Source: an uncultured Porphyromonadaceae bacterium (lineage in GTDB: Bacteria; Bacteroidota; Bacteroidia; Bacteroidales; Muribaculaceae). Taken from it: DNA of 37,580 nt. A program made the position numbers and the translations under genes. The first letter of the stretch is position 1; each line of letters begins with the position of its first letter. Under the pieces are notes generated by a model. That model saw only the letters and a list, made by a program, of their open reading frames with translations. It made no database searches and was not told where the DNA came from. The stretch covers positions 1 through 37,580 of the forward strand of contig CAMEGQ010000019.1 of NCBI GenBank assembly GCA_945916235.1, written 5' to 3'. Positions 148 through 34,888 of this stretch are shown piece by piece.

Positions 148-765
148 ATGATGAATAAATTTGCTATAGCCCTTTGCAGCATGGCATGGGGAGCTGTGAT
201 GTTAACATCGTGTAATCCTAAAGAGCGTCTGGCTGAAGAGGTGCAGGGTTGCTGGACCGGAAATCCTGAAACGCTTCAGGATACTGGCGCCATGACGGCT
301 TCACTGGTTCGAGTTTTCCAGTTCACAAAGGGCACAACGCCTACGGAGGGAACTGTGACTATGACAGCTGTCATTACAGTGGAAAACACCATGCAGTCGA
401 ATGACTCGATTATTACTCCGCTGCAGATTTCGGCCTCTGGAACTGCTACAATAACAGGCGTCTATCAGGCCAAAGACGATGATGAACTGATTGTAAGGCT
501 CGACAATACGTCACTCAGTGTCTCGGTAGATCCCGATGGCGTACAGCTCAATTATGATGTCCTTACCGGCGACTCAGCACCTATGGCCGACCGCTTGAAA
601 CCCGGCGCAGCCGTGCTTGCCACCCAGCAGATCAACCGCGCCGCCCAGCATCTGTTCTCGAACTTCACGGAAATTGAAGATATCCATATCAATGGCGACG
701 TGATGCATTGCGAGGTGAAGGATGTCGACCTGGTAATGACGCGCTCGCCGCAAGCTACAGACTGA
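148..765 (+). CDS. Hypothetical lipoprotein, 205 aa
   Basis: The N-terminus is a lipoprotein signal: MMNK, a hydrophobic stretch, then the lipobox LTSC with the lipidated Cys at residue 22. The mature part (from NPKERLAEEVQGCW) is rich in alternating Thr/Val/Ile and predicted beta strands, with a WTG motif near its start, which suggests a small lipocalin-like or beta-sandwich domain. The C-terminus has one more Cys (MHCEVKDVDLV). It is probably anchored to the periplasmic or outer membrane face. I do not recognise the family, and no function can be given. It stands alone between a terminator and the fumarase gene. MMN offers two adjacent starts; the first is used. Confidence 0.75.
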   Translation: MMNKFAIALCSMAWGAVMLTSCNPKERLAEEVQGCWTGNPETLQDTGAMTASLVRVFQFTKGTTPTEGTVTMTAVITVENTMQSNDSIITPLQISASGTATITGVYQAKDDDELIVRLDNTSLSVSVDPDGVQLNYDVLTGDSAPMADRLKPGAAVLATQQINRAAQHLFSNFTEIEDIHINGDVMHCEVKDVDLVMTRSPQATD

Positions 766-1069
766 TCCTATTCCATCCGGATTTAGACCTCTCGTAGCTA
801 TAGACTTCGCCGGTGCCTTTCCTTCTGTGTAGATTCTATGTTGAACCCTCTATCTCAACATAAGTGTTTTGCCGCTCTGCCCCTAGGGGTGGGGCGGTCT
901 GTTTTCCAAGCACTCGGTAAATTTTAGAGCCAATTTTAGGCTCGGAAATCTACAATTTTGCCCTGACGCGGCTTTGGTTGCTAAAAATTTTGTAACTTTG
1001 TGAAACCTATGGCTTCAGCCGATGTAAATGTGTAATACGCAACAAAACAATCAAAAACATATTCGTAAT
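766..1069 (+). promoter_or_regulatory. Intergenic region with fumarase promoter (TAACTTTG at 993-1000)
   Basis: This 304-base gap holds three things. At about 871-907 there is a GC-rich imperfect hairpin (CCGC...GCCCC against GGGGCGG) followed by GTTTT, a weak candidate terminator for the lipoprotein gene. At 927-943 there is an inverted repeat GAGCC-AATTTTA-GGCTC, possibly an operator. At 973-1000 there is a Bacteroidota promoter, TTTG at 973-976 and TAACTTTG at 993-1000, which would give a leader of about 65 nt to the ATG at 1070. Confidence 0.6.
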
Positions 1070-2725
1070 ATGGCAACCAAACCGTTTCATTATCAGGAGA
1101 TGTTCCCCCTCGGCCCTGACACTACCGAGTATTACCATCTCACTTCCGACTATGTATCGACCCAGAATTGGGGCGGCCATGAGTTTCTCGTTGTTGACCC
1201 TGAGGCGCTGACAGTGCTGGCCCGTCAGGCTACTCACGACAACGCTTTCCTGCTCCGCCGCGAGCACAACGAGATGGTGGCAAAAATTCTCCATGATCCC
1301 GAAGCTTCAGCCAACGACAAGTTTGTAGCCCTCACCATGCTCCGCAATGCTGAAATAGCTGCCAAGGGTGTGCTCCCCATCTGCCAGGATACCGGTACGG
1401 CTATCATCCACGGCGAGAAGGGTCAGCTGGTCTATACAGGTTGCGACGACGCTGAGAAACTGTCAAAAGGTGTCTACGACACATATACCACCGACAATCT
1501 GCGTTATTCGCAGAATGCACCTCTGACCATGTATGAGGAGGTTAACACCGGATGCAACCTTCCCGCTCAGATCGACATCCACGCCGGCGAGGGCAACAGC
1601 GACGAGTATCACTTCGTATTCGTGGCAAAGGGTGGCGGTTCGGCCAACAAGACTTATCTTTATCAGGAGACCAAAGCCATCATCAACCCCAAGACTCTGG
1701 TGCCCTTCCTGGTTGAGAAGATGAAATCGCTCGGTACGGCAGCCTGCCCTCCTTACCATATCGCATTCGTGATCGGCGGCACATCGGCCGAGAAGAATCT
1801 AGAGACCGTAAAGAAGGCTTCCATCAAATATTACGACTCACTGCCCACCACCGGCAACGAATACGGACGCGCATTCCGCGACGTAGAGCTTGAGAAAGAA
1901 CTCAAGAAGGCTTCGGAGCAGATCGGCCTCGGCGCTCAGTTCGGCGGTAAATATCTGGCTCACGACATCCGTGTGATCCGTCTGCCGCGCCACGGAGCTT
2001 CGTGCCCCATCGGTATGGGCGTGAGCTGCTCGGCCGACCGTAATGTCAAGGCCAAGATCAACAAGCAGGGTCTCTGGATTGAGAAACTTGACACCAACCC
2101 CGGCGAACTTATCCCCGCAGAGCTTCGCGAAGCAGGCGAAGGCGACGCTGTGAAGATAGACCTCAACCGCCCCATGGCTGAAGTGCTTGCCGAGCTCGAC
2201 AAATTCCCTGTAGCTACCCGCCTGAGCCTGAACGGTACCATCATTGTGGGCCGTGACATCGCTCACGCTAAGATCAAAGAGCGTCTCGACGCCGGCGAAC
2301 CGATGCCCCAGTATCTCAAAGATCACCCCATCTACTATGCCGGTCCCGCTAAGAAACCGGCCGACCTCCCCTCGGGTTCGTTCGGCCCGACCACGGCAGG
2401 GCGTATGGACCCCTACGTTGACCAGTTCCAGAAAGCCGGCGGCTCGATGATTATGATAGCCAAGGGTAACCGCAGCCAGCAGGTGACCGATGCATGCAAG
2501 GCCAACGGCGGCTTCTATCTCGGTTCGATCGGCGGTCCGGCAGCTATTCTGGCTCTCGAATCCATCAAGAATGTCGAACTGCTCGAATATCCCGAGCTCG
2601 GCATGGAGGCTATCTGGAAAATCGAGGTAGAGAACTTCCCCGCCTTCATCCTTGTTGATAATAAAGGGAACGACTTCTTCAAGCAGCTCCCCTCGCAGTG
2701 CGCTGCCTGCAATCTCGCAAAATAA
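1070..2725 (+). CDS. fumA: Class I fumarate hydratase (iron-sulfur)
   Basis: Converts fumarate and malate in the TCA cycle; in anaerobic Bacteroidales it serves the reductive branch leading to succinate. The N-terminal alpha domain carries PICQDTGTA with Cys105. Further conserved Cys lie in TAACPPYH (Cys226) and in [15 protein letters not shown] (Cys312 and Cys320). Three of these should bind the labile [4Fe-4S] cluster, as Cys105, 224 and 318 do in E. coli FumA. The C-terminal beta domain (from about residue 385) contains TAGRMD and [13 protein letters not shown]. The length of 551 aa fits a single-chain class I enzyme. An upstream in-frame ATG at 1028 exists, but homologous sequence begins at MATKPF, and the A-rich stretch before 1070 is a normal Bacteroidota leader. 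The gpmI gene follows after 54 bp, probably in the same transcript. Confidence 0.95.
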
Positions 2726-26878: not shown

Positions 26879-28963
26879 TTATTCTTTGTTGGCAGAGGGC
26901 TTTTCAGCGCTCTCTGCGGCTTTTGGCTCATCGGCGGCTCCGGCCTTATCAGCGGCTCCGGCGCCCTCGCCATTAGTATAAGGTTCTGCGTCTTGAGATT
27001 GTTCAGCCGGGGCGTTCTCTCCGCCAGTGTTCGTTTGGTCAGTGTTCGTTTGGTCAGTGTTCGTTTGGTCAGCGTTCGGGCCGTCAGCTTTTGTTGTCGC
27101 GGCGGGAGCGGCGGGAGCGGCAGCGGCTGCCTTGGCTTTCTTACGGCCGCCGGGGCGGCCGCCGAACGGTGGCTCTTTCATCAGTTCGAGCATCTCGAAT
27201 GAGATATTGAACACATCCTCGGGACCTGTAGGACGCAAGGGCTCGAACCAGCGGAACTGCGGCAGGAAGAACAGGCTCTTCTTGGCCAGATACAGCGGCG
27301 TCATGGTGCCGGGTGTCTCGGGCCACATCTTCAGCCGTTCGATAGTCTGCCCGTTGAAGTCGGCCGACAGGAACGAGCTCTCGAAGTTGGCGATCTTATT
27401 GTAGGTGGAGTCGTTTTCCATCGGAAGCATAATCCCCTGCACGTTGCCCTTGATATCCAGATGCTTGATGCTCTGCTTCTCGAATGTGGCATACATCTCC
27501 TTGCCGGTCAACTGGTCGTAGAATTCCTCGTCGATCCATTCGGCCATGAATCCGAAGTCGGGCAGGCGCGCCCAGTCGGCTGTGGAGTCGTTCATGTGCA
27601 CCTGGATCTCATTGCCGAAAATCTGTTTCTGCTCGTTCCAGACTACCGGGTGATAGTCCATATACATGATCGAATCTTTCTGAACTACAGTCAGCGAGTC
27701 GCAAAGCCCCTGAATGTCAGAGCGGAAGAAGCGCACATGCGGGGCCGCCACGATGTGGTGGGTGGTGTCGGCAGGGAGGGTCACCGAGTCGTTGAGCGCC
27801 TTTTCTGGAGTGATGACCATGTAGGCACGGATGGTGTCGCCATGCATGAACAGAGTATCCTTGGGCGATGAGTATTCCCTGGCGAGGGCGCGACCTGTCA
27901 CCAGAGCGCTGTCGGCCACCTCGAAATAGTAGCCGTAGTCACCCGTGAGCAATACCTTCTTGGCCGTATCGGTCAGCTCGATATTCCCGAAGGCCTCGCC
28001 GAATCCGAGGTTGCGGTCGTAGTAGAGCGTATCGCCGGTGAGGGTGTTGCCGTTTTTGGCCACTACCAGCGACCGGCGGTAGAGGTCGGCCTGCGAAGTC
28101 TCGGTGTTGTAGACTCCCGAGGTGGTGTAGATGGTGCCGTCGCCTGAGATGATAGTCGACGTGGTGTCGAGCACGGCGATATGGCTCGCCGTATTGTAGA
28201 TCATCTGCTCGGTGTATATGTCGAGGGTGTCGCTCTCCTTGAGGCTGCTAAGATGCACGTCTTCGCGAAACAGCGCATCCTTGGTTGAGGGGCTGTATTC
28301 GCCATACCATGAGTCGAGCCGGTTCTCCTTATCGGTGAGCACACCGCCCACTTCGTAATATCCCAGCTCGATGCCCAGGTCGTAGTTGAAGATGTCGGTG
28401 GTCAGTTTGGTATCGCGGTTGATAAGGCGCACTTTCTTCCCCGGGTCGGCATAAAGGATAGCCAGCTGCGTGGAGTCGGCATAGTTGAGTTCGTCACCGT
28501 AGACAAAGAGCGTGTCGCCCTGCTCCATGCGCACATTGCCGTAGGCGTTGAGCGCCCCCGGGCTGTCGTAGAAATTGGCCGAGTCGCAGTACATGTACAT
28601 ATCCCCTTTGCGGAACACCACATCGCCCACCACAATCTGATAGTCGGTGTTGGGGACGGCTCTGAGCTCGTTGGCTCGCTCGAGAAACACTCGGTTGCGC
28701 TGGTAGCGGTTGGCCTTGGGGATGGTGGGGGAGATAGGGGTGGTGTCGGGCTGATGGAGCGCCGCGGTCGGTTTTATCGTATTGCCGGCCGAGGGCTTTG
28801 CGGCCTGCGATGAGGCTATCACTGAAAGCCCCGCCAAAGCCACGGCTCCGAAGAAAGCGCCGCGCAGCCCCCTGATGCGCCCGGCTGCTGCAGCCGGCCT
28901 CCGGCCTTTAAGGCCGCTGCCCGGATGCGGGGCAGATGAGTTTATTTTCTGATTTTCAGCCAT
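26879..28963 (-). CDS. OstA-like protein (LptA/LptD N-terminal-type domain)
   Basis: A periplasmic beta-jellyroll protein related to LptA and the LptD N-terminal domain, probably taking part in lipopolysaccharide transport to the outer membrane. After a basic N-terminus and a hydrophobic signal segment (residues about 36-54, FFGAVALAGLSVIASSQA), repeated OstA motifs follow: VVFRKGDMYMYCDSANFY, GNVRMEQGDTLFVYGDEL, YGEYSPSTKDALFREDV and LTGDTLYYDRNLGFGEAFG. The length of 694 aa includes an unusual C-terminal tail of about 100 residues rich in Ala, Lys, Gly and Glu, with three DQTNT repeats (DNA 27026-27070). Its start overlaps the end of the SurA-like gene by 22 bp, suggesting coupling. Confidence 0.88.
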   Translation of the reverse strand: MAENQKINSSAPHPGSGLKGRRPAAAAGRIRGLRGAFFGAVALAGLSVIASSQAAKPSAGNTIKPTAALHQPDTTPISPTIPKANRYQRNRVFLERANELRAVPNTDYQIVVGDVVFRKGDMYMYCDSANFYDSPGALNAYGNVRMEQGDTLFVYGDELNYADSTQLAILYADPGKKVRLINRDTKLTTDIFNYDLGIELGYYEVGGVLTDKENRLDSWYGEYSPSTKDALFREDVHLSSLKESDTLDIYTEQMIYNTASHIAVLDTTSTIISGDGTIYTTSGVYNTETSQADLYRRSLVVAKNGNTLTGDTLYYDRNLGFGEAFGNIELTDTAKKVLLTGDYGYYFEVADSALVTGRALAREYSSPKDTLFMHGDTIRAYMVITPEKALNDSVTLPADTTHHIVAAPHVRFFRSDIQGLCDSLTVVQKDSIMYMDYHPVVWNEQKQIFGNEIQVHMNDSTADWARLPDFGFMAEWIDEEFYDQLTGKEMYATFEKQSIKHLDIKGNVQGIMLPMENDSTYNKIANFESSFLSADFNGQTIERLKMWPETPGTMTPLYLAKKSLFFLPQFRWFEPLRPTGPEDVFNISFEMLELMKEPPFGGRPGGRKKAKAAAAAPAAPAATTKADGPNADQTNTDQTNTDQTNTGGENAPAEQSQDAEPYTNGEGAGAADKAGAADEPKAAESAEKPSANKE
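27026..27070. repeat. 15-bp tandem repeat in the OstA-like gene (x3)
   Basis: Three identical copies of AGTGTTCGTTTGGTC (plus strand) are followed by a degenerate fourth. They code for the in-frame peptide repeat DQTNT in the C-terminal tail. Since the unit is 15 bp, gain or loss of copies keeps the frame. Confidence 0.95.
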
Positions 28964-30300
28964 CCCTGATGCTCAAATTCGCAGTTGCTCCAGTTGTCCT
29001 CGATTTTTACGTAGGTGTCGTTGATCTTCTTCTCGATCCAGTCTTTCACCATTTTGGCTTTGGCCGAGTTTTCATACATCACCTTAATGGCCTGATAGTC
29101 ATCGCTGAGGTTGGCCTTGTGGGCCGGAATGCGGGCCGTGAGTTTCACGATGGCCACGATATCGGAGTTGCGTTTGGGGTCTTTCATCACGAAGGCCTCC
29201 GACACATCGCCCACCTGCATATCGTTGATCTTCTTGGCTACCTCCTGAGGAAGCTCCGACATCTCGAAGCGAGTGGTGTTATTGGCCTGGTTGATCATGC
29301 GACCCTGATTATTGCGGGTGTCTTTATCCTGCGAGAGGGCCGTAGCCTCCTCGAAGGTGAACTTTTTGGCGAGGATGTCGCTGCGGAGCGAGTCGAGACG
29401 GTTCACGGCGTCGCGCAGGTCGGCTTCAGCCACTTTGGGGCGCAGAAGGATGTGGCGCGTGTTCACCCGGTCGCCGCGCTTCTCGATGAGCTGGATTATA
29501 TGGTAGCCGTATTGTGTCTCCACGATTTTCGACACTTTGCGCGGGTCGTTGAGGTTGAAGGCCACGGCAGCATATTCCGGTTCGAGGTGACCTTTACCCA
29601 TGAATCCGATCTCGCCGCCGCGCACACTGCTGCCGTCTTCGGAATAGAGGATAGCCAGGGTGGAGAACTCCGATTCGCCGCGGTTGACGCGGTCGGCATA
29701 GTCGCGCAGACGGGCCTTTACATCGTCAATCTCCTGCTGGGGGATTTTGGGGTTGATGGTGATAATCTCTGCCTCAACCTGCGTGGGGATGAACGGGATG
29801 GAGTCGGTGGGGAGTTTGTCGAAATATTTGCGCACATCCGAGGGTGTCGTCTTGAGGTCTTTGGAGATGTTGCTCTGCACCTGCTGCACTCGGTACTGAT
29901 TGCGCATGGCGTCGGCCATCTGTTCGCGGAATTCTACCATCGGTTTGCGGAAATATTCTTCCAGCTTTTCCTTCGATCCCAGATTGGTCACCAGATAGTT
30001 GATACGCTGCTCCACAGCCTGATTTACCATCGATTCCTGCACCTCCACGGTGTCGATATCTGCCTGATGCAGAAAGAGCTTCTCAATGGCGAGCCGCTCA
30101 GGAATCACGCAGTACGGGTCGCCCTTTATAGGCTCCTTCTCATAAAGCATCTGCTGATAGGCTTCTTCGATTTCACTTTTATAGATGGGTTGGTCGCCTA
30201 TCATCCAGGCGACTTCTTCCACAATATTGTTGTTGGCTGCCAGAGCGGCCAGGGCTGCGAGGCCGGCCATCGGCGCGAGGATTCTACGGTTGATTTTCAC
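28942..30300 (-). CDS. SurA-like periplasmic peptidyl-prolyl isomerase
   Basis: A periplasmic chaperone/isomerase that assists outer-membrane protein folding. With GTG at 30300 as start the protein begins MKINRRILAPMAGLAALAALAA, a good signal peptide. The N-terminal chaperone part has IGDQPIYKSEIEEAY and INYLVTNLGSKEKLEEYF. Two parvulin (PpiC) domains follow: the first around residues 170-275 with DGSSVRGGEIGFMGKG and YGYHIIQL, the second from about 280 with RVNTRHILLRPK and GRMINQ. Length is 453 aa. The frame is open to an ATG at 30465, but the promoter element at 30379-30386 lies inside that extension and it has no signal peptide. It heads the run SurA-like, OstA-like, M18 peptidase. Confidence 0.92.
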   Translation of the reverse strand: MKINRRILAPMAGLAALAALAANNNIVEEVAWMIGDQPIYKSEIEEAYQQMLYEKEPIKGDPYCVIPERLAIEKLFLHQADIDTVEVQESMVNQAVEQRINYLVTNLGSKEKLEEYFRKPMVEFREQMADAMRNQYRVQQVQSNISKDLKTTPSDVRKYFDKLPTDSIPFIPTQVEAEIITINPKIPQQEIDDVKARLRDYADRVNRGESEFSTLAILYSEDGSSVRGGEIGFMGKGHLEPEYAAVAFNLNDPRKVSKIVETQYGYHIIQLIEKRGDRVNTRHILLRPKVAEADLRDAVNRLDSLRSDILAKKFTFEEATALSQDKDTRNNQGRMINQANNTTRFEMSELPQEVAKKINDMQVGDVSEAFVMKDPKRNSDIVAIVKLTARIPAHKANLSDDYQAIKVMYENSAKAKMVKDWIEKKINDTYVKIEDNWSNCEFEHQGWLKIRK

Positions 30301-30378
30301 GTGATTCGGGTGTTGAAAATTCTCTGAATGAAGATGTTGCGGCAGGTCGACGCACTGGCGCGCCTGCCTATCAAATCG

Positions 30379-30386
30379 CAAATTTA
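30379..30386 (-). promoter_or_regulatory. -7 element of the SurA-like operon
   Basis: TAAATTTG on the minus strand lies about 80 nt before the GTG start. No TTG at -33 is seen. It decides against the upstream ATG at 30465. Confidence 0.5.
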
Positions 30387-30525
30387 CATAATTTTCGTGA
30401 ATATCCCTTTGCCGCCGTCCGTTAAAAAGCCAAAAATTTGCGCGAAACGTGTCTGTGTGCGTCATATTGGAAGATGTGTGGCATTGTTTGGCTCAAACGA
30501 GGCAGAGTAAATGACAAAAAATTCT

Positions 30526-30533
30526 TACCTTTG
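30526..30533 (+). promoter_or_regulatory. -7 element of the nitroreductase-DUF6377 gene
   Basis: TACCTTTG fits TAnnTTTG and gives a leader of about 20 nt to the ATG at 30559. No good -33 element is seen. Confidence 0.5.
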
Positions 30534-30558
30534 AAGTCAGTAAAGAAATCTATTTGCC

Positions 30559-32898
30559 ATGACCCTGCTCGAAGCCATATCTGCCCGCCATTCCGTGCGC
30601 CGCTATACCGACCGACCGCTTGATGCCGATGTTATAGCCCTCCTGACCGCCAAGATTGAGGAAATCAATACCGCGGGGCGGCTCCATGCGCAGCTTGTCA
30701 CCTATGAGCCGAAGGCATTCCGCGGAGGCTTCGCCTACGGTTCGTTCCGTGGTGTCACCGACTATATCATCATGGCCGGGGAGAAGGGTGCAGACCTTGA
30801 TGAAAGGATAGGGTATTATGGTCAGGAACTGGTGGTGTATGCTCAGACCCTTGGACTGAACACCTGTTGGGTCGGTCTGACGTATAATAAGGTCAGCGGT
30901 ACCTGCAATCTCGCTCCCGGAGAGAAGATCGTATGCTATATCGCTCTGGGCTACGGCGAGTCGCAGGGTTCACCGCATAAAAAGAAAAGCATAGAGCAGC
31001 TCGGAGGCGTCACCGCCGACTCTCCGGAGTGGTACCGCCGGGGGATGGAGGCGGCGGCCATGTCGCCGTCGGCCGTGAACCAGCTTAAATGGCGGTTCCG
31101 CTGCGCGGGCGTCGATGCCGGGGGCCGCGGTGTGGTAGAATGTGATCGCGGCCGCTCTCTGATAGGATATACGGCTATAGATCTGGGAATTGCGAAATAT
31201 AATTTTGAAATCGGGGCTGCTCCCGTGAAGATCGTGTTCCGTCAGCCGTCAGGATCTGAAAGGAGCCGTAAGACTTTCCTCGCTTTTGGCATAGCTTTAG
31301 GCATCGCTTTAGCCGGCCTGATGACTTCGCCGGCGGCTGAAGCCTCCGACAGCACCCCGGCCGAACTGATGCGCCGCCTGCAGGGCGGCGGCACTGTGGA
31401 GCAGGCTGATGTGCACGCTGTGCTTCACCAGCTCGACCGGGAGGTGAACCGCCGCAACGAATATCGCGCCCGACGTGTAGCCCGCATCGACTCGCTGGGC
31501 CGTCTGCGCAGAGCCACCGCCGAGCGGTCGCCGTCGTGGTTCCGACATACAATGGAGATAGGGCAGGCCTTCGGGTCGTTCAACAACGATTCTGCCTTGA
31601 AATATCTTTACGAAGGGTATGAGGCGGCACGGGCCGGAGGCAACGACTCCACAGAAATCAGTTTCCGCATCAGGTTGGCTCCGGCGCTGTCGATGGGCGG
31701 ATATGTGACCGATGCTCTGGCAGCTCTCAACGAAGTGGATACCGTCGGGCTGTCGCCGGCACTGCTGCGCAGCTACTACGCCCAGGCCCGGCAGACATAT
31801 TCCTATGTAGCTAATTATTACGACGGCCTCGGGGCGTCGCGCGACAACTGGAACACACGGATGGTGGAGTCGCAGGAGCGGCTGCTCCCGCTTCTGGAGA
31901 AGGGATCGGACGAATTTCAGCTCAATCAGGGCGAGTATCTGTTCAATACGCACCAGCTGGCCCGCAGCCGCACCATACTGCTCGACCTCGTGGGTCGTCT
32001 CGACCCGGATTCTCCCCAGTATGCCATTGCCACCCACATTCTGGCCCAGATAGCCGCCCAAAACGGGAGGCGCAACGAGCAGGTGCTTTTCCTTGCGCTT
32101 TCGGCCATGAGCGACACCCGCCGCAGCAATCTCGAGGTGATGTCGATTCAGGAGCTGGGCGGCCTGCTCTTTGAACAGGGTGATACCAAACGCGCCCACA
32201 ACTATCTGGTGATGGCCATGAACAATGCTGTCGACAGCCGGGCTTCGGTGCGTCTGTCGCAGACTTCGCAGCTGCTGACGGTGATTGAAAACGACCATCT
32301 GTTGCAGATACGCCGCTATCGGCGTATCACCACCACGGCGCTGTGCATTCTGGCCGTGTGCCTGCTGGCGATGGTGGCGGGGCTTTGGTTCCTGCGCCGT
32401 CAGCTGCACCGTCTCGACCGCCTCAAGCAGCATCTTGAGGTGTCGAACAAGGCCAAGGAGGTGTATATGAGCCGGTTCATGTCGCTGTGCTCAATATACA
32501 TGGACAAACTGAAGCAGTTCAGCAAACTTGCCAACCGTAAGATTTCAGCCGGTCAGGTCGATGAGCTGTATAAGCTCACGAAATCCGGTAAATTCGTCGA
32601 GGAGCAGAGCCGCGAGTTCTATCTGGTATTCGACGATGCCTTCCTGCATATCTATCCCGATTTTCTGGAGAAGGTCAATGCCCTGCTGCGCCCCGAAGAG
32701 CGCATTACGCTTGAGGATGGTGAGCTGCTCAACTCCGACCTGCGTATCCTGGCGTTTATGAAACTGGGTATTGATGATGCCCCGCGCATCGCCCATATCC
32801 TCAACTATAGCGTCAATACCATCTACGCCTACCGCAACAAGCTCCGCAACAAAGCCATCAACCGCGACACGTTCGAAGCTGACATCCTTGCTATCTAA
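30559..32898 (+). CDS. Nitroreductase-like domain fused to DUF6377 membrane regulator, 779 aa
   Basis: Residues 1-228 resemble a nitroreductase-family flavoprotein: the FMN-binding start ISARHSVRRYTDRPL, YYGQELVVYAQTLGLNTCWVGLTY and the end AIDLGIAKYNFEIGA. Residues 238-257 form a hydrophobic segment (FLAFGIALGIALAGLM) ending with AEA, like a signal peptide. Residues about 265-590 are a helical TPR-like sensor region with RRNEYRARRVARIDSLGRL, typical of DUF6377. A second membrane helix is at about 591-612. The C-terminal part ends in a LuxR-type helix-turn-helix, IAHILNYSVNTIYAYRNKLRNK (about 743-764; core motif VNTIYAYRNKL). The topology is consistent: flavin domain inside, sensor in the periplasm, DNA-binding domain inside. 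DUF6377 proteins normally start at their signal peptide, so this is a stop-loss fusion or a rare architecture. GTG codons at 31225 and 31234 could be internal starts for a separate regulator. Confidence 0.8.
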   Translation: MTLLEAISARHSVRRYTDRPLDADVIALLTAKIEEINTAGRLHAQLVTYEPKAFRGGFAYGSFRGVTDYIIMAGEKGADLDERIGYYGQELVVYAQTLGLNTCWVGLTYNKVSGTCNLAPGEKIVCYIALGYGESQGSPHKKKSIEQLGGVTADSPEWYRRGMEAAAMSPSAVNQLKWRFRCAGVDAGGRGVVECDRGRSLIGYTAIDLGIAKYNFEIGAAPVKIVFRQPSGSERSRKTFLAFGIALGIALAGLMTSPAAEASDSTPAELMRRLQGGGTVEQADVHAVLHQLDREVNRRNEYRARRVARIDSLGRLRRATAERSPSWFRHTMEIGQAFGSFNNDSALKYLYEGYEAARAGGNDSTEISFRIRLAPALSMGGYVTDALAALNEVDTVGLSPALLRSYYAQARQTYSYVANYYDGLGASRDNWNTRMVESQERLLPLLEKGSDEFQLNQGEYLFNTHQLARSRTILLDLVGRLDPDSPQYAIATHILAQIAAQNGRRNEQVLFLALSAMSDTRRSNLEVMSIQELGGLLFEQGDTKRAHNYLVMAMNNAVDSRASVRLSQTSQLLTVIENDHLLQIRRYRRITTTALCILAVCLLAMVAGLWFLRRQLHRLDRLKQHLEVSNKAKEVYMSRFMSLCSIYMDKLKQFSKLANRKISAGQVDELYKLTKSGKFVEEQSREFYLVFDDAFLHIYPDFLEKVNALLRPEERITLEDGELLNSDLRILAFMKLGIDDAPRIAHILNYSVNTIYAYRNKLRNKAINRDTFEADILAI

Positions 32899-32970
32899 CC
32901 CCGTAGCGCAGATTCACAAACGAAGTGCAAAAATTCCAGGCCTCGGGGGAGGAAATATTGTAAAATTTGT

Positions 32971-32978
32971 TAACTTTG
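32971..32978 (+). promoter_or_regulatory. -7 element of the HU/SPOR gene
   Basis: TAACTTTG gives a leader of about 100 nt. The leader holds a GC-rich hairpin at 33010-33036 (CTGC-GCGGCTT paired with AAGCCGC-GCAG, one bulged G) and then a purine-rich GGGGGAGGAGGA, but the ATG is 45 nt further on, so the hairpin is not a simple ribosome-site block. Confidence 0.5.
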
Positions 32979-33084
32979 CAGATTACTGGCAGAGCGTTCC
33001 GACGCTTACCTGCGGCGGCTTTCCGTAAGCCGCGCAGGGGGAGGAGGACTGTTGGCCTGGTAATATATTAGTAAACAAAGAATT

Positions 33085-34236
33085 ATGAATAGTATAGCTT
33101 CCCATGTTGAGTATCTGCTCCGCAAACATGACTGCGTAGTGCTTCCGGGCCTCGGCGCTTTGCTCTGCCGCTATGTCCCGGCCTCGTTTGCCGATGAGGA
33201 TGGTGTCACACTCAACCCTCCGGGTCGCTTTATGGCCTTCAACGGGATGCTTACCGAATCGGACGGCATGCTCGCCTCATCGGTAGCCCGCCAGAGCGGA
33301 GTCACGTTCGAGGCTGCCACGCGCAGCGTGGAAGCTGAAGTGGCTCAGATGCGCGCGCAGCTGGCGCTCCATGGCGAACTGCAGCTGGGCCGACTGGGCA
33401 AATTCATCAGTTCGGCCGATGGGCTTATCTCGTTTGAACCCGACGAAATCGCCGGCATCAACGGCTATTTCTTCGGTCTGCGTCCTATCTCGCTGCGCCC
33501 GCTTGCCATGCTCCACAGTCCGGCTGTGGCCAAAGTGGCCGAACCGGTGCTCCCCGTATATCAGCCCGAACCGCGCTCGCGCCACTCATGGCGAGCCTAC
33601 GCTGCCGGTATCGCCGCCTCACTGGCCCTGCTCTTCACGGTGGGATTGTATTGCCTGTCGCCGATGAGCATAAATACGCCTACCGATACGGCTTCGCTGG
33701 CACCTGCCGTGCAGGTGAAGAAGTCCACGCAGACCAAGCCGATCACCATCAAAAAAAATCAGCAGCTTCAGGTGCGCCCGCAAATCAAGGGTGTCCCGGT
33801 CCGCAGGGCTGTGTCGACGGATTCTGTGCGTATGATCAAAGGCGGGCAGAAGGTTACACCGGGTCAGCCTGTCAAGAATAGTCAGAATGTCAAACCGGTA
33901 AAACCCAATGGCGCTGTCAAGGCCGGTAAAGCCGAGATTGTAGAACTTCCCAAACAGCTTGACTACAAGGCCAAGCAGGTCGGAACCAAGGTGAAGCCAA
34001 CCTCGTCGGTTCAACCGCGCCTGTCGGCCTCCGACCGTTACTGTGTGATTGTGGCTTCGTTTGCAACGCGTTCGCAGGCAGAGGTTTATGTGGCTCAGAA
34101 TGGTGGAAGCAACCTCGGCATTCTGGAGAAAGACGATAAATTCCGGGTATATGGTGCCACAGGGTCGACTCGCGACGAGGCTAACGCCCAGCGTGCCCTC
34201 ACCGGCAAAGCCGATGCCTGGGTCTGCGCCCGCTGA
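33085..34236 (+). CDS. HU/CCDC81-type and SPOR domain membrane protein
   Basis: The N-terminus (1-60, SIASHVEYLLRKHDCVVLPGLGALLCRYVPA) matches the bacterial CCDC81-type HU-like domain, followed by a second small HU-like part with LQLGRLGKFIS (about 95-135). One membrane helix is at about 173-193 (AYAAGIAASLALLFTVGLY). A basic, Pro/Lys-rich periplasmic linker runs from 200 to 310. The C-terminal SPOR domain (about 313-383: DRYCVIVASFATRSQAEVYV) should bind denuded peptidoglycan at the division septum. The protein may therefore link DNA or a cytoplasmic structure with septal cell wall. The family occurs widely in Bacteroidota, usually near cell-envelope genes. Its length (383 aa) is normal and it has its own promoter. 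Confidence 0.88.
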   Translation: MNSIASHVEYLLRKHDCVVLPGLGALLCRYVPASFADEDGVTLNPPGRFMAFNGMLTESDGMLASSVARQSGVTFEAATRSVEAEVAQMRAQLALHGELQLGRLGKFISSADGLISFEPDEIAGINGYFFGLRPISLRPLAMLHSPAVAKVAEPVLPVYQPEPRSRHSWRAYAAGIAASLALLFTVGLYCLSPMSINTPTDTASLAPAVQVKKSTQTKPITIKKNQQLQVRPQIKGVPVRRAVSTDSVRMIKGGQKVTPGQPVKNSQNVKPVKPNGAVKAGKAEIVELPKQLDYKAKQVGTKVKPTSSVQPRLSASDRYCVIVASFATRSQAEVYVAQNGGSNLGILEKDDKFRVYGATGSTRDEANAQRALTGKADAWVCAR

Positions 34237-34357: not shown

Positions 34358-34888
34358 ATGATGGAGAATCTTCACGAACTTCTGATAAACCGCCGAAGCA
34401 TCCGCCGCTATACCAATGCGCCGGTTGATGCCGACGATGTACGCCTGATACTGGAGGCCGGACTGATGGCCCCGACTTCGAAAAATGCCCGCAGCTGGCA
34501 ATTTGTCGTAGTGGAGGAACCGGAAATGCTGGCGCTTCTGGGTCAGTGCAAGCCTAATTATGCCACCTCAGTGGCCAATGCTCCTTTAGCTATCGTGGTC
34601 ACGGCCGACATGACCAAGTCGGAGGCCTGGATAGAAGACGCCTCGGTGGCTGCTTCGTTTATGATGCTTCAGGCCGCCGACCTCGGACTCGGCAGCTGCT
34701 GGGTAGAGGTGCGCGACCGCTACCGCGAAGACGGAGAGCCCTCGGAGGAATATGTTCGTAATCTGCTCGGTATTCCCGAAGAGATGGCTGTGGTATGTAT
34801 CCTTTCGGTAGGCTACAAGGACGAAACCCGCCGCCCGATCGATACCACCAAGCTGCTTTGGGAGAAGGTTCACGCCGGAAAATGGTAA
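34358..34888 (+). CDS. Nitroreductase family protein, 176 aa
   Basis: A small FMN-dependent oxidoreductase. Motifs: ELLINRRSIRRYTNAPVD at the N-terminus (FMN phosphate contacts), LMAPTSKNARSWQFVVVE, ANAPLAIVVTAD, WIEDASVAASFMMLQAADLGLGSCW, and VCILSVGYKDE near the C-terminus. It is the compact form seen in Bacteroidota, roughly 170-180 aa. The substrate is unknown. It probably starts an operon with DUF2520, kdsC and maf. Met1 and Met2 are adjacent and either may be used. It is only distantly similar to the nitroreductase half of the fusion gene upstream. Its stop codon falls within a 19-bp duplication. Confidence 0.92.
   Translation: MMENLHELLINRRSIRRYTNAPVDADDVRLILEAGLMAPTSKNARSWQFVVVEEPEMLALLGQCKPNYATSVANAPLAIVVTADMTKSEAWIEDASVAASFMMLQAADLGLGSCWVEVRDRYREDGEPSEEYVRNLLGIPEEMAVVCILSVGYKDETRRPIDTTKLLWEKVHAGKW

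Follow-up and report, generated by a model that had tools for sequence, protein, structure and literature searches.

A nitroreductase joined in frame to a SusR-like membrane regulator, probably in one species of Muribaculaceae

The window analysed here, a 37,580-nucleotide stretch of DNA from an uncultured Porphyromonadaceae bacterium (Muribaculaceae in the GTDB lineage; assembly GCA_945916235.1, contig CAMEGQ010000019.1), contains a single reading frame that passes from a flavin-type nitroreductase directly into a membrane-bound regulator. This raises the question of whether the two are truly one gene with one product and, if so, how a regulator came to carry an enzyme at its N-terminus. The features on which the answer depends are as follows.

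28942..30465, minus strand: SurA-type PPIC isomerase ORF, the divergent neighbour; extent as in the ORF list.
30526..30533, plus strand: TACCTTTG, a Bacteroidota-type -7 element (TANNTTTG) found by pattern search, 25 nt before the nitroreductase ATG.
30559..32898, plus strand: fused ORF with an ATG start, 779 aa, from the ORF list and its translation.
30559..31242, plus strand: TM1586-type nitroreductase domain, residues 1-228 (Pfam 3-220), compared with stand-alone relatives.
31200..31207, plus strand: TAATTTTG, a possible internal promoter of the regulator, found by pattern search within the end of the nitroreductase frame.
31225..31236, plus strand: GTG 31225 and GTG 31234, in-frame candidate starts.
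31264..31344, plus strand: signal-peptide-like segment, residues 236-262, ending in AEA; identified by hydropathy and aligning with the signal peptides that relatives have at their N-termini.
31345..32898, plus strand: SusR-like DUF6377 regulator, with a TPR-like region, a hydrophobic helix at 587-612 and a C-terminal putative DNA-binding region.

A first-pass annotation of this DNA had described one uninterrupted frame in which a nitroreductase domain is followed by a DUF6377 protein, and both points hold. The frame is open over all 779 codons, without an internal stop, and the Pfam scan places PF14512 (TM1586_NiRdase) at residues 3-220 (222.1 bits against a gathering cut-off of 27), PF00881 at residues 83-132 (34 bits against 23.5) and PF19904 (DUF6377) at residues 519-745 (profile positions 1-247 of 247, 227.8 bits against 36.7). 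Since the two main matches lie far above their cut-offs, the domain content is more than chance. The open frame on its own is no proof of selection, because two frames brought together by an insertion would be in register in about one case in three by our estimate. In the NCBIfam scan, the sole match of the fused protein is SusR_regulator (NF058541) over residues 287-779, which at 385.6 bits misses the equivalog cut-off of 480, so that the regulator half can be read as SusR-like rather than as SusR. The LuxR-type helix-turn-helix formerly assigned to its C-terminal end is not confirmed, as the Pfam scan finds no GerE/LuxR family in the fused protein at E<=0.1 and the profile match points to a SusR-like protein instead. 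Hydrophobic 19-residue windows begin at residues 236-245 and 587-598 and mark two candidate membrane helices, in keeping with the signal-like helix and second membrane helix proposed earlier and with the topology reasoned from them. The signal-peptide-like helix spans residues 236-254, and the AEA expected at about residue 262 is found at residues 260-262.

With SusR-like regulators (NF058541; PF19904), the window protein shares the TPR-like region, one membrane helix and the C-terminal putative DNA-binding end, together with a signal peptide in its orthologues. It differs from them in adjoining SurA/OstA genes and in its additional N-terminal enzyme domain. SusR genes often, though not always, have SusC/SusD or glycan genes as neighbours. 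According to the excerpted text of PMC3878776, three of the five SusR-like genes of B. thetaiotaomicron adjoin susC/susD-like genes; ten proteins of the window, including seven nearest neighbours, were scanned, and no SusC or SusD occurs among them. A structure model computed from the window protein and seven orthologues (alignment A1, seven of eight loci, with L035 left out) has a mean pLDDT of 62.8 and a pTM of 0.48. It predicts a helical region at residues 267-560, mostly at pLDDT 74-94, followed by a long helix at 563-663 that includes the second hydrophobic segment and by a C-terminal end at moderate confidence; the best Foldseek matches are TPR proteins. The nitroreductase half is not resolved in the model, because no other alignment row covers it. 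Among solved structures, the regulator profile matches none at E<=0.1 and the single-protein search yields none at E<=0.001, while the nitroreductase profile (A2, 11 sequences matched) finds 1vkw as its best relative (E 5.5e-12).

The two halves have different histories in the genus, which was sampled as 14 genomes including the window's own. Orthologues of the regulator at 48-59% identity occur in 11 of the 13 other genomes (L031-L034, judged to be copies of four of these genomes, are not counted again); G002 has a match of 31% only, and G011, which is 71% complete, has none. Each of the 11 is a frame of its own, 530-628 aa long from stop to stop. In eight of these loci (L002-L009), SurA lies divergently next to the regulator at 77-88% SurA identity, the SurA match and the regulator ORF being 105-297 nt apart, with no match to any window gene in the gap; at L010-L012, SurA is not found within the available flank. 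None of the 11 loci has a nitroreductase beside the regulator in flanks of up to 1.5 kb. Similarity between the window and the genus at the DNA level ends inside SurA at about 30231-30262 and returns within the regulator at 31549 or later, which indicates that the nitroreductase occupies a region that is otherwise intergenic. The true start of SurA is probably inside the listed ORF, as the alignment with relatives begins only at about residue 78.

The nitroreductase, on the other hand, has only weak matches within the genus, in nine of the 13 other genomes (E 1e-8 to 1.7e-4, frames up to 334 aa), and no match in the other four. The family sample contains it in 277 of 397 genomes (own included, E<=0.001), the best matches being 59-60% identical and the longest other frame 327 aa among the matches listed. 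At the level of the order, it is present at E<=1e-40 in 11 of 344 sampled genomes (own included), with 367 aa as the longest other frame, and in the phylum sample the one match among 247 at E<=1e-25 is the window itself. Weak matches within the genus and identities of up to 60% in other genera and families together suggest that this domain is a newcomer to the genus. In a tree of 41 rows, its end branch is 1.06 compared with a median of 0.1, a length equalled by L090, and no starred group contains it, so the tree does not place a donor.

The junction itself was expected at the point where a nitroreductase would normally stop, and this is where it falls: nitroreductase similarity reaches about residue 220 and the stand-alone relatives end about eight residues further on, so the join coincides with the end of the domain. 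Relatives typically end in ...KYHFEIGAGKENFDWA followed by a stop, where the window reads ...KYNFEIGAAPVKIVFRQPSGSERSRKTFLAF. A tryptophan at or near the C-terminus is present in all 40 stand-alone relatives (L025, L049-L077, L081-L090) and absent from the window; it is a feature of close relatives and lies outside the Pfam definition of PF14512. The window thus resembles TM1586-type nitroreductases (PF14512; 1vkw), to whose stand-alone members it is up to 60% identical, but differs from those listed in that its last residues, the tryptophan included, are replaced by a run into the signal peptide. On the other side of the junction, the genus regulators start ahead of a short signal peptide with ATG in 10 of 11 cases and TTG in one, the start codons having been chosen by the analyst; examples are MKFIVAFLFAVISFSACHASA in L006 and MRKLVALIIILPFF in L005. 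The window has SRKTFLAFGIALG at this position, and no ATG occurs in any frame within 31141-31320. GTG 31225 and GTG 31234, already named as alternative starts in the first-pass annotation, are the only in-frame ATG, GTG or TTG codons between residues 193 and 254, and the next in-frame start codon is ATG 31321 (residue 255), where the signal-like helix ends. With neither a stop for the nitroreductase nor an ATG for the regulator, one base error would hardly account for the fused frame. The regulator may nevertheless be able to start at a GTG.

Genome searches place this fusion in one species rather than in a conserved family. Of the 397 genomes from the family, 211 contain the regulator half at E<=1e-60, as do 56 of the 344 from the order at E<=1e-30; these samples overlap and take one genome per species, and so represent a sample and not a census. 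Among the matches listed from both sets, there is no second nitroreductase-DUF6377 fusion, which is consistent with the earlier remark that no named family with this order is known and answers, for the 397 Muribaculaceae genomes, the check for further fusions suggested at that time. Apart from the window, the only regulator frame longer than 628 aa among the matches listed is that of G273 (852 aa), a DUF6377 homologue that was considered as a second N-terminal fusion and rejected, as its open frame overlaps mutL in another frame. The homologues in G045, G239 and G001, with frames of 604-628 aa, have no added domain by eye. In flanks mostly of up to 1.5 kb, DUF6377 is near none of 49 other nitroreductase loci (L025, L040-L077, L081-L090), and this nitroreductase is near none of 39 regulator loci. 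Viral contigs and plasmids (near mode) gave no match; in the literature searched, neither DUF6377 nor SusR together with a nitroreductase was found. It had also been supposed that homologues which are always two genes would speak against the fusion. Every relative seen does have two genes, which rules out a conserved fusion family but not a fusion in a single genome, and the fusion in this genome stands.

The reading that we favour, and hold to be fairly probable, is that a foreign nitroreductase gene was inserted between SurA and a resident SusR-like regulator and joined to the latter in frame, with a single 779-residue product likely. The fusion is probably real and confined to one species. 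In this sequence of events, a nitroreductase gene foreign to the genus would have entered the gap between the divergent SurA and DUF6377 genes, and the join would have cost the nitroreductase its stop and the regulator its ATG. The -7 consensus of Bacteroidota promoters is TANNTTTG, and TACCTTTG at 30526..30533 is likely the promoter of the fused gene. Transcription from about 30526 would then yield as the main product, most likely, a single inner-membrane protein, in which a cytoplasmic flavin-type domain precedes the former signal peptide, now a signal-anchor or else cut at AEA, followed by a TPR-like sensor in the periplasm, then a membrane helix and, back in the cytoplasm, the DNA-binding end. 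Without cleavage of the signal-like helix, both the enzyme domain and the DNA-binding end would be cytoplasmic; cleavage by signal peptidase at AEA would instead leave a normal regulator and a nitroreductase carrying a hydrophobic tail. Membrane one-component regulators such as CadC and ToxR also have a cytoplasmic N-terminal domain, followed by a membrane helix and then by a sensor in the periplasm, but in them it is the N-terminal domain that binds DNA, unlike in the window protein, and no homology is claimed. In the excerpted text of PMC3878776, SusR is described as a membrane protein whose sensor lies in the periplasm and whose DNA-binding domain, in the cytoplasm, activates starch genes, and by homology the window regulator should act likewise: a periplasmic ligand would most likely switch on transcription in the cytoplasm. 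For the nitroreductase half, the likeliest role is that of a tethered enzyme or of a passenger. In PMC6739599, nitroreductase and TM1586_NiRdase domains are enriched among homomers with multi-chain binding sites, and a tethered copy might accordingly need to pair.

The closest competitor, a real possibility though one we would not put first, is that two products are made, the fused protein plus (or mainly) the regulator alone, the latter from TAATTTTG at 31200-31207 and GTG 31225 or 31234. The regulator alone would be an ordinary signal-peptide protein with a longer n-region, and its synthesis is compatible with the fusion. TAATTTTG ends 17 nt ahead of GTG 31225 and might allow the regulator to be produced by itself from that codon. 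It arises from the AAT codon of Asn215, a residue that is His in 38 of 40 relatives, and none of the 40 stand-alone nitroreductases has TANNTTTG at this position; among the eight relatives with SurA next door, seven carry it within -87 to +47 of the start of the listed regulator ORF. The consensus is enriched in the whole window (26 copies against 12.8 expected, a count reached by none of 100 shuffles), but several further copies also lie inside listed ORFs, so TAATTTTG may be there by chance, and no -33 element is seen by eye for it. The start contexts are divided. In the 15 nt ahead of GTG 31225 the fraction of A is 0.07, lower than at any of the 20 starts hand-picked from the ORF list for comparison (0.13-0.60, mean 0.33), whereas that of GTG 31234 (0.20) is inside their range. 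The stretch around the GTG starts folds at -19.1 kcal/mol compared with -8.3 and -6.0 at two other starts, though no better than its own shuffles. Whatever the internal element does, the fusion will still be made by any ribosome that begins at the ATG of the nitroreductase.

Rather unlikely, in our judgement, is a fusion that is real but accidental, with the nitroreductase a decaying passenger and the regulator unchanged. The long branch, the loss of the C-terminal tryptophan and the lack of a second species with the fusion among the listed matches would fit this reading, as would the changes at 11 of 65 otherwise invariant columns of the nitroreductase half, compared with 0-2 in each of the 29 rows L049-L077 (31 nitroreductase rows and 12 regulator rows were counted). 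The regulator half is changed at nine of 141 columns invariant in the others, compared with 0-10 in each of the other 11 orthologues. However, L025, which belongs to another family, is changed at 10 of 64 columns, and this equal divergence suggests that the nitroreductase changes may reflect distance and not decay. The RHSVR and P-x-A-x-NQ motifs of the relatives have a role in flavin binding. R10, H11, S12, V13, R14, P170, A172, N174 and Q175 are invariant throughout A2, an alignment of 11 out of 31 nitroreductase rows with L076 left out, and are kept by the window; retention of R10, S12, R14, N174 and Q175 in a domain that is open over 228 codons argues against simple decay. The nitroreductase half may be active, changed or decaying.

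An assembly error that hides an ordinary two-gene arrangement is improbable. The source is one draft genome of 170 contigs with a contamination estimate of 3.78%, and the two genes are separate in every relative listed. Out-of-frame stops lie close by (TGA 31226, TGA 31257, TAA 31269), and the in-frame GTGs, or out-of-frame TTGs at 31190, 31205 and 31286, offer possible starts. One error could thus give a stop, but it would not restore the ATG that is wanting in every frame. Moreover, genus-like DNA lies on both sides of the nitroreductase, so a chimeric contig would need two misjoins. No repeat of 10 nt or longer brackets the nitroreductase in the region 30250-31400; the one direct repeat found (14 nt, at 31050 and 31384) does not do so. 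More doubtful still is a dual-input regulator, in which a cytoplasmic flavin domain (redox or nitro/quinone) and periplasmic TPR ligand sensing would feed one DNA-binding end and the internal promoter would give an enzyme-free version. The redox- or flavin-linked transcription factor put forward in the first-pass annotation is suggested by the joining of the two domains in one protein.

What is seen at this locus is a regulator resident beside SurA in the genus, a newcomer nitroreductase, the disappearance of the regulator's ATG and a promoter-like element at the junction. Sister species still show the older arrangement, and the fusion looks like a clean natural case in which a new enzyme gene became fused in frame to a membrane regulator already in place. 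Should the flavin domain influence the regulator, a cytoplasmic redox input would have been added to the SusR-like class, for which the excerpted text of PMC3878776 describes periplasmic sensing only; if it has no effect, the locus would represent an accidental fusion with a possible promoter rescue.

The surroundings of the regulator vary. In the window, it is followed on its 3' side by an HU-CCDC81 protein (32898-34236), unlike in L002 and L004, where homologues of window 148-765 and of the fumarase at 1028-2725 come after the regulator; the fumarase homologue in L004 is cut by the contig end, and window 148-2725 lies at the opposite end of the window contig. In some loci outside the genus, the regulator homologue adjoins mutL, directly downstream in L020 and L035-L038, and in L017 mutL is on the other strand past the 3' end of the homologue. 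The regulator's neighbour therefore changes while the gene is kept. Three regulator homologues in the family contain in-frame stops (TAG in G140, TAA in G309, TAG and TAA in G318) and are perhaps pseudogenes. A second nitroreductase is encoded in the window at 34358-34888 (PF00881, 97.7 bits), about 1.5 kb downstream of the fusion.
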